The notes under the pieces are model-generated. The model had not been told where the DNA came from, did not search any database, and worked only from the letters and a program-made list of their open reading frames with translations. Shown here piece after piece: positions 1,686 through 3,652 of a stretch of 10,913 nt of DNA; position 1 is the stretch's first letter; the number at the start of each line of letters is the position of its first letter. The DNA is from an uncultured Chloroflexaceae bacterium (lineage in GTDB: Bacteria > Chloroflexota > Chloroflexia > Chloroflexales > Chloroflexaceae), in contig CAKZQX010000472.1 in assembly GCA_937141995.1 (NCBI GenBank), forward strand, positions 1 through 10,913. Direction: 5' to 3'. The position numbers were made by a program, and so were the translations under genes.

Positions 1686-1695
1686 GTTACATACC
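1686..1695. repeat. Left copy of the 10-bp target-site duplication
   Basis: GTTACATACC directly abuts the left terminal inverted repeat and is identical to the copy that abuts the right one. Confidence 0.8.
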
Positions 1696-1940
1696 CAGGG
1701 CAATTGCATTTAAATCACCATGGAGTATGCCGTTCTGAAGCACAGGCTTGCTGCATTCACGTGATGAAACAGCATTCGCTTCACCGCTATGGTTGCTTTC
1801 ACGGATGTCATGTGCAGACAAGCGTACCATAGCCGGGTTATTCCGCACGATAGGTTGGTATGGTTCGTACCTGTGATGGCGGGGTTTCTCCGCATCATGA
1901 TACGGCAAAACGCCTCAACGGTTTATATGCGATTGCCCTG
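1696..1940. mobile_element. MITE-like non-autonomous insertion with 19-bp TIRs and 10-bp target duplication
   Basis: The left end (1696-1714) begins CAGGGCAATTGCAT. The right end (1922-1940) read on the opposite strand begins CAGGGCAATCGCAT. The two agree at 17 of 19 positions. Immediately outside both ends lies the same 10-mer, GTTACATACC (1686-1695 and 1941-1950). Terminal inverted repeats abutting a perfect direct repeat are the hallmark of a transposition product. The 245-bp interior has no recognisable transposase, so the element would have been mobilised in trans. From memory, CAGGG ends with 8-10-bp duplications suit ISAs1-family elements; IS4-type relatives with about 10-bp duplications are an alternative. 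Intact ends and an undecayed duplication suggest a fairly recent insertion. The structure is seen directly; the family is inferred. Confidence 0.82.
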
Positions 1941-1950
1941 GTTACATACC
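1941..1950. repeat. Right copy of the 10-bp target-site duplication
   Basis: GTTACATACC directly abuts the right terminal inverted repeat and matches the left copy at all ten bases. Deleting the element and one copy would restore the presumed pre-insertion intergenic sequence. Confidence 0.8.
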
Positions 1951-1988
1951 ACTCACGCTGGAGTACTACCTATATCATCAAGATCGGA

Positions 1989-1994
1989 AAGGAG
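1989..1994 (+). promoter_or_regulatory. Ribosome-binding site deciding the methyltransferase start
   Basis: AAGGAG is a near-ideal Shine-Dalgarno sequence. It lies 3 nt before an ATG at 1998 and 9 nt before an in-frame ATG at 2004. The second spacing is closer to the usual range, so 2004 is preferred, with 1998 possible. The site rules out the longer open frame starting at 1860, inside the mobile element. Confidence 0.75.
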
Positions 1995-2003
1995 ACAATG
2001 CTT

Positions 2004-2726
2004 ATGTGTAATTCACACTGTGTGGATTGGATAGAGCGCCACCTGAGTAGCACAGAGGTACGCGGCAGGCGGGTGATAGAAGTTGGCTCATTTGATGTAA
2101 ATGGCAGTGTACGACCATCTATTGAGTGTTTGCATCCGGCAGAATATGTTGGTATTGATATGCGATCCGGTCCTGGCGTAGACATAGTGTGCCCGGCTGA
2201 AAATTTAGTCGCACGTTTTGGGCCAGACAGTTTTGATATTGTAGTGACCAACTGTGCATTGGAACATATTTGTCACTGGAAAAAAGCTGTGTCAAATATG
2301 AAACAGATTTGCACGCCAGGTGGTCTTATTGTTGCCATCGCCCCTGTCCGCTGGCCGTTTCATGCCTATCCCAATGACTTCTGGCGTTATGATGAATACG
2401 ATATGCGTGCCATTTTCGCTGATATGCTTATCCTGAATATTGAGGCAGAAAACACCAGAAACGCCAACGTTTACATTAAGGTTCAGAAACCGCTCATATT
2501 CACTGAATGTGATCTGTCAGATTATCGCCTTTATTCAGTTATAACTGGGAAACGTGTTCTGGATATCCACACACGCGATTTTTTAACCCTTCACTTTGCC
2601 CAGATACTCTTGGGGCGTGGATTGCACTACCTGGATCCGCGTATTGCCAGAATCCTTATCTATATCATCATGGGCATCAAACTCAAACTGGTTGATCCTC
2701 TCCGTCGTCTGGTAGCACGTTTATAG
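2004..2726 (+). CDS. Class I SAM-dependent methyltransferase (Methyltransf_11-like)
   Basis: This predicted cytosolic enzyme of 240 residues uses S-adenosylmethionine, probably to methylate a sugar or another part of the glycan made by the locus; the acceptor cannot be read from sequence. Motif I is EVGSFDVNG (residues 26-34). An acidic residue after the second strand (YVGIDMR, D52) should contact the ribose. FDIVVTNCALEHI (77-89) is the motif IV region, and PGG (105-107) precedes the next strand. A later PNDFWRY (123-129) is typical of methyltransferases from polysaccharide clusters. The C-terminal third is more basic and hydrophobic and may touch the membrane. The open frame could extend back to 1860, but that part lies mostly in the mobile element and lacks homology, so I use the start set by AAGGAG. 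The next GT2 gene begins 26 bp downstream. Confidence 0.82.
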   Translation: MCNSHCVDWIERHLSSTEVRGRRVIEVGSFDVNGSVRPSIECLHPAEYVGIDMRSGPGVDIVCPAENLVARFGPDSFDIVVTNCALEHICHWKKAVSNMKQICTPGGLIVAIAPVRWPFHAYPNDFWRYDEYDMRAIFADMLILNIEAENTRNANVYIKVQKPLIFTECDLSDYRLYSVITGKRVLDIHTRDFLTLHFAQILLGRGLHYLDPRIARILIYIIMGIKLKLVDPLRRLVARL

Positions 2727-2752: not shown

Positions 2753-3652
2753 ATGCCTACTCATCTACCACTACTGTACGTTGTTGTGTTGAACTGGAAT
2801 AATCCCATGGACACGTTGCACTGCCTGGAGTGTGTTGCACGGAGTAGCTATCTCCAGTTGCAAATTGTCGTTGTAGATAACGGTTCATCGGATGACTCAG
2901 TAGTTCGGATACGTACAGCTTTTCCAGACTATACGCTACTGCAAAATAGGACCAATCTTGGCTATGCCAGTGGAAACAATAGCGGCATTCACTATAGTCT
3001 GAAACGTGGTGCAGACTATGTGGTGCTTCTCAACAATGATGCCTTTGTCAAGCCAGATACACTCAGTTCCCTGGTTCTAACAGCAGAGTCTGATGTAACC
3101 ATTGCAGCAGCAGGGTGCAAGGTTCCTTTTTATGACACACCTTACCGCCTATGGGCTGCCGGTGAGGCCTTTCCTCATGGCCTCTATCCGTTGGATGATG
3201 GTCGTTTCGATACTCCCCGTGACATTACCTATGCTGCCGGCTGTTGCATATTACTGCGTCGGGTTGCACTTGAGCAAATTGGCCTGCTTGATCCCCGCTT
3301 TTTCTGCTATTTTGAAGAGCAGGATTGGTGTCTGCGGGCTACCAATGCGGGATACCGAATTGTCTACGTTCCGGAGGCGGTTGTCTATCACCGTGTAGCC
3401 GCATCTTCTGGAGGATTTTCTCCTCTTTACCATTACCTCTTTGTGCGTAACTATTTGTATATGTCAGAGAAACATGGACGGGTTGGTTTACATATATGGC
3501 GGATACATGATGCATTGCTAGTCTGGCTGCGTGAACTACTGCGCATTATGATGGCTCCGGGACCAAGCCGATTGCGCCGGGCTTGGGCTGCCACACGGGG
3601 AGCACTGGATTTTTTCTATGGGCGCTTCGGAGTTCCACCCACGGGACTATAG
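2753..3652 (+). CDS. GT2 family glycosyltransferase, rhamnosyltransferase-like
   Basis: This 299-residue, GT-A-fold, inverting enzyme probably adds a sugar from a nucleotide donor to a lipid-linked glycan on the cytosolic face. The strand LYVVVLNWNN (residues 8-17) and VVDNGSSDDS (40-49) form the nucleotide-binding region. NLGYASGNNSG (68-78) is the conserved glycine-rich segment. LLNNDA (92-97) contains NND, the family's metal-binding DxD equivalent. EEQDW (188-192) supplies the usual catalytic acidic region, and YHR near 212-214 is the typical downstream histidine. The pattern best matches the WbbL/rhamnosyltransferase subgroup of GT2, but the donor is not proven. It lies 26 bp after the methyltransferase with only a weak ribosome-binding site, which suggests co-transcription. 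It resembles the GT2 at 9843-10805 throughout, so the two are probably paralogues. Confidence 0.88.
   Translation: MPTHLPLLYVVVLNWNNPMDTLHCLECVARSSYLQLQIVVVDNGSSDDSVVRIRTAFPDYTLLQNRTNLGYASGNNSGIHYSLKRGADYVVLLNNDAFVKPDTLSSLVLTAESDVTIAAAGCKVPFYDTPYRLWAAGEAFPHGLYPLDDGRFDTPRDITYAAGCCILLRRVALEQIGLLDPRFFCYFEEQDWCLRATNAGYRIVYVPEAVVYHRVAASSGGFSPLYHYLFVRNYLYMSEKHGRVGLHIWRIHDALLVWLRELLRIMMAPGPSRLRRAWAATRGALDFFYGRFGVPPTGL

Follow-up and report, generated by a model that had tools for sequence, protein, structure and literature searches.

MITEs are usually present in multiple copies in a genome, and the number can be low. As far as the available part of PMC11946415 goes, the ISAs1 family carries 14- to 22-bp repeats starting with CAGGG together with a 10-bp duplication; in the available part of PMC11578231, MITEPye1, which belongs to the IS1182 family, is described as mostly intergenic, with 1–3 chromosomal copies. 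Within the same part of that source, MITEPye1 resembles the element described here in being small, transposase-free and stem-loop forming, with inverted repeats and a duplication, and differs from it in IS family and ends. No description of ISAs1-derived MITEs was found in titles and abstract openings, subscription journals and ISfinder lying outside this search.

The 245-bp element and its ends

The window, meaning the whole stretch of DNA analysed, comprises 10,913 nt of contig CAKZQX010000472.1 (assembly GCA_937141995.1) from an uncultured Chloroflexaceae bacterium, and contains a transposase-less 245-bp element with ISAs1-type ends at positions 1696..1940. Its left terminal inverted repeat (TIR), CAGGGCAATTGCATTTAAA at 1696..1714 on the plus strand, and its right TIR, CAGGGCAATCGCATATAAA at 1922..1940 as read on the minus strand, agree at 17 of 19 bases, and the two copies of the target duplication, GTTACATACC at 1686..1695 on the left and 1941..1950 on the right, are identical in all 10 bases and directly abut the element; the length, the TIR agreement and the perfect duplication are exactly as the initial annotation had given them. 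A degenerate end pattern with up to three mismatches occurs at two sites in the window, both of them the TIRs, where shuffles lead one to expect 0.03. Compared with IS elements of the ISAs1 family (NCBIfam model NF033564), the element shares the CAGGGCAATCGCAT start of the ends of several members and the 10-bp target duplication, but it is without a transposase and measures 245 bp against 1205–1353 bp for end pairs that bear a 10-bp duplication.

No transposase gene was found in the element, whether in the ORF list, with Pfam/NCBIfam or by comparison with five ISAs1 transposases, which bears out the transposase-free interior claimed earlier. Among ORFs of at least 60 aa, none lying mainly within the element exceeds 81 aa, and a 73-aa ORF at 1687-1908 (minus strand) matches no Pfam/NCBIfam family at E 0.001. 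The five ISAs1 transposases reach a best E of 0.02 over 26 residues against the element; in the same test, a relic in the host genome gives 5e-9 and 7e-9. Taken as a whole, the element gives a better fold than shuffled sequence on either strand (z of −4.8 and −5.6), whereas the interior alone (1719-1917) folds less well (z of −1.3 and −2.4), so the terminal repeats supply most of the fold signal; a search of the element against Rfam gave no family at E up to 1.

The element combines TIRs and a flanking duplication, the absence of a transposase and ends like those of an autonomous IS, and it fits the tested definition of a MITE in everything except multiple copies found in the fragmented (1122-contig) host assembly. 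Its ends have the properties of ISAs1, namely a CAGGG-starting repeat within 14–22 bp and a 10-bp target duplication; an autonomous ISAs1 IS encodes a transposase, which the 245-bp element does not.

ISAs1 elements and the end family in other genomes

Other genomes contain full-length elements with matching ends and a transposase, and the host contains one that has decayed. L012, L085 and L157 measure 1205–1314 bp, with ends nearly like those in the window and 10-bp duplications with 0–1 mismatch. L085 (1314 bp, perfect duplication) and L157 (1205 bp, one mismatch in the duplication) have intact transposase frames that score 396 and 365 bits with NF033564, for which the cut-off is 70 bits, and these two transposases and that of L008 each cover nearly the full length of the model. 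L012, from a genome of the same family as the host (G009), is 1229 bp long; both of its ends read CAGGGCAATCGCATCTT, and the two copies of its GCATGCCACC duplication are identical. Its transposase is broken by one TAG, and the open stretch fits the model in part. The ends of L008 and L012 open with the same CAGGGCAATCGCAT start as the element. The initial annotation had suggested an ISAs1-type parent, and the family is supported by the ends, transposases and 10-bp duplications of L012, L085 and L157; since full-length elements, NCBIfam matches and the available part of PMC11946415 agree, the assignment of the ends to this family has been tested. L015 was not counted among the full-length elements that share the ends of the window element, because its transposase sits between other ends (CAGGGCATGTGC...); it is flanked by CAGGGCATGTGCAAAGTCAGC copies, so these ends are not common to all ISAs1 elements.

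Across the host's order, the ISAs1 model is matched in 18 of 41 genomes, 16 of them above the cut-off. The host assembly, which is 86% complete, yielded no intact ISAs1 transposase but two small sub-cut-off pieces, and the sister species gives no match to the model. Both host pieces belong to a decayed ISAs1 relic with an internal deletion and one CAGGGCTATCGCATCT end (L024:1330-1873, host contig C268). Against L044, an element of a same-family genome with ends CAGGGCCATCGCATCT and an identical AGCCTCCAGC duplication, the relic has 78% and 84% identity in two stretches, and the stretch between them is missing.

Genome contigs were scanned for the end pattern, which gave at least 115 stretches; end pairs were accepted where a convergent mate with up to 6 mismatches lay 60–1600 bp away and both sides had 16 bp of flanking sequence. 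Among the 115 loci listed, 39 gave 44 convergent end pairs and 76 gave none. A 10-bp duplication with up to one mismatch flanks 20 of the 44 listed pairs (13 perfectly) and is absent from 24, and duplications of 6, 7, 8, 9, 11 and 12 bp occur in 1, 1, 1, 4, 0 and 0 of them; in the controls, no 10-bp duplication turned up in any of ten slipped registers or among 8551 swapped flanks. These 20 pairs, which include several copies per assembly and are not fully independent, comprise 3 of 1205–1314 bp (L068, L085, L157) and 17 of 146–538 bp. The end pairs of L008, L010 and L011 showed no flanking duplication, and the paired L059 was left out of the count because inspection by eye showed no ISAs1-like frame in it and because it lacks a duplication.

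At least 12 other genomes, told apart by record title, contain short elements that have such ends and a 10-bp duplication. A set of 146–147 bp in Desulfobacterales MAG.124 (L065, L141, L145, L148) and a set of 186–197 bp in Chloroflexi L.E.CH.71/Anaerolineae AMX57 (L067, L073, L103, L118) have the same ends as the window element and their own 10-bp duplications, and L067-type elements are 84–88% identical over 32 bp to its right end; among the best 40 BLAST matches, both sets differ from it in interior, and they differ also in length and in having several copies per genome. The expectation that elements with matching ends would recur with different 10-bp duplications was thus borne out elsewhere as regards ends and duplications, while the interiors proved to be different. 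Within the same best 40 matches, the similarity of the element to fetched loci outside the genus lies at the ends, mostly over 19–37 bp; the longest end match is with L071 (74 bp, 69%, E 0.002), and the single interior match covers 29 bp (E 0.22). In all, the MAG.124 assembly holds seven ISAs1-ended elements of 146–147 bp (L065, L141, L145, L148, L054, L081, L129), whose flanking duplications differ, are 9–10 bp long and have one mismatch in some. One stretch bearing the end pattern was seen in viral contigs.

Copies in the host and its order

The host assembly (5.42 Mb, 1122 contigs, 86% complete) contains one full copy of the element and one 62-bp fragment; copies may be missing from it because of this fragmentation and incompleteness. 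The fragment, G000:C260:3327-3388, is 79% identical over 62 bp to window positions 1751..1812 (+), i.e., element bases 56-117. The search covered one other genome of the genus, that of the sister species; its half copy, G001:C316:14487-14615, is 77% identical over 129 bp to 1812..1940 (+), i.e., bases 117-245, through the terminal repeat. Since relatives of bases 56-117 and 117-245 occur separately, the alignments suggest that the interior may be a mosaic of two sequences joined near base 117; in local alignment, the similarity of the 62-bp fragment runs beyond base 117, weakly and with gaps. An order-wide search of 82 genomes, including the host, gave matches to the element at E 0.001 in two, the host and the sister species, and no second complete copy of the interior, so the further copies of the 245-bp element that had been anticipated were not encountered in this set. 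Plasmid and phage records gave no match to the element. About 4 bp past the 62-bp fragment on host contig C260 there starts an inverted repeat, GGATACCACTGGT ... ACCAGTGGTATCC (L002:1566-1611), and a tandem array with a GC-rich unit of about 22 bp lies upstream of the half copy in G001:C316 (L007:820-1020).

Origin, genomic setting and age

The element is very probably a miniature non-autonomous (MITE-type) element that an ISAs1-family transposase moved in trans, a reading that rests on the 17/19 TIRs, the 10/10 duplication and the existence of ISAs1 elements with like ends and duplications; the mobilisation in trans and the identity of the helper are what we infer from these likenesses. An ISAs1-family transposase would bind the CAGGGCAATYGCAT... 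ends, excise the 245 bp or make a copy of them and insert this into a target opened by cuts 10 bp apart on the two strands, the repair of which would leave the flanking GTTACATACC copies; such staggered opening is general knowledge for transposases of this kind. The insertion would have hit the spacer of about 117 bp between the flippase and methyltransferase genes of a surface-polysaccharide cluster. Points against this reading are the single complete interior in 82 genomes, which gives no sign that the 245-bp element has multiplied, the lack of an intact ISAs1 transposase in the 86%-complete host assembly and of any in the sister species, the interior unlike five ISAs1 transposases, the 24 of 44 listed end pairs that carry no 10-bp duplication (L008, L010 and L011 likewise), the other ends of L015, and the lack of an empty site.

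That the stretch is plain intergenic DNA in which an inverted repeat arose by chance would agree with the single full copy and with the lack of an empty site; this is nevertheless so improbable as to be negligible, as a TIR pair with an adjacent duplication is expected only about 1.5e-8 times per window under a simple equal-base model, the same ends recur with 10-bp duplications in other genomes, and the register control opposes it. An internally deleted ISAs1 element, which inserted here as a full-length IS and was later stripped of its transposase in place, would likewise have the ends and the duplication of the family, and such a relic is present in the same genome; however, the interior reaches only E 0.02 over 26 residues against the five transposases where the relic reaches 5e-9, and partial interior relatives elsewhere in the genus suggest a lineage of its own, so that this history is highly unlikely. 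Derivation of the interior from a transposase was rejected, there being no signal against the five ISAs1 transposases, and nothing visibly marks the element as an IS with an internal deletion, since its interior, unlike the host relic, has no resemblance to any of these five.

A further explanation accepts a real insertion and supposes that it has been co-opted, either as a hairpin in a flippase-methyltransferase transcript that alters expression or as an N-terminal extension of the methyltransferase. The upstream neighbour is a polysaccharide biosynthesis protein of flippase type (Pfam PF01943, 204..1625, +), whose stop codon lies 60 bp ahead of the left duplication; the downstream neighbour is a methyltransferase (Pfam PF08241, 2004..2726, +) that starts at either 1998 or 2004, and next comes a glycosyltransferase gene at 2753-3652. 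The right end of the element lies 57 bp from the methyltransferase ATG at 1998, the first possible one, or 63 bp from that at 2004, in agreement with the roughly 55–65 bp reported at the outset. The methyltransferase frame is open upstream to an ATG at 1860 within the element (window 1860-2726), so an N-terminal extension would be possible if translation began there, and the fold of the whole element would suit a hairpin, but the interior by itself folds less well, with the terminal repeats dominating. A good ribosome-binding site and start also stand outside the element: a Shine-Dalgarno-like AAAGGAG occupies 1988-1994, 9 bp before the ATG at 2004, and the insertion left this likely ribosome-binding site intact. 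No sigma-70-like promoters were found at 1600-2060, where shuffles give 1.0, nor any terminators, where shuffles give 0.3, and the suggestion that the element replaced or separated the methyltransferase promoter thus goes unsupported. Co-option is accordingly considered unlikely, and the effect of the insertion on the neighbouring genes would seem to be neutral; as co-option is compatible with a MITE mobilised by an ISAs1-family transposase, the likelihoods attached to these explanations do not sum to one.

As a MITE-type element with ISAs1 ends, it belongs to a known kind, of which it is an ordinary and well-preserved member, and leaves ideas on how such elements work unchanged. It provides a record of a miniature element of ISAs1 type with clear boundaries, and its end sequence is useful for annotating unlabelled insertions because of the register-controlled short elements in the other genomes. 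On a broader scale, ISAs1 transposases might drive a class of miniature elements that is widespread in several bacterial phyla but has been little described, with conserved ends and lineage-specific interiors, of which the window element would be a mosaic member; this is put forward tentatively, with the balance tipped somewhat against it.

It had been suggested that the insertion may be recent, and the perfect duplication is compatible with this; identity at 10 of 10 bases has a probability of 0.35 at 10% pairwise divergence, but it is still about 0.05 at 26%. The best non-self relatives of the methyltransferase and the flippase have about 35% and 28% identity among 41 and 21 genomes (host included), in which no close relatives of these neighbours were found. 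A sister-species contig, G001:C52 (L192), was rejected as the same, empty site because two other genes intervene and the flanking DNA is not similar: it has no duplication 10-mer and no 9-bp end, and its flanking match is one 16-bp chance stretch. Its polysaccharide cluster holds distant relatives of both neighbours (30% and 24%) in a different arrangement.
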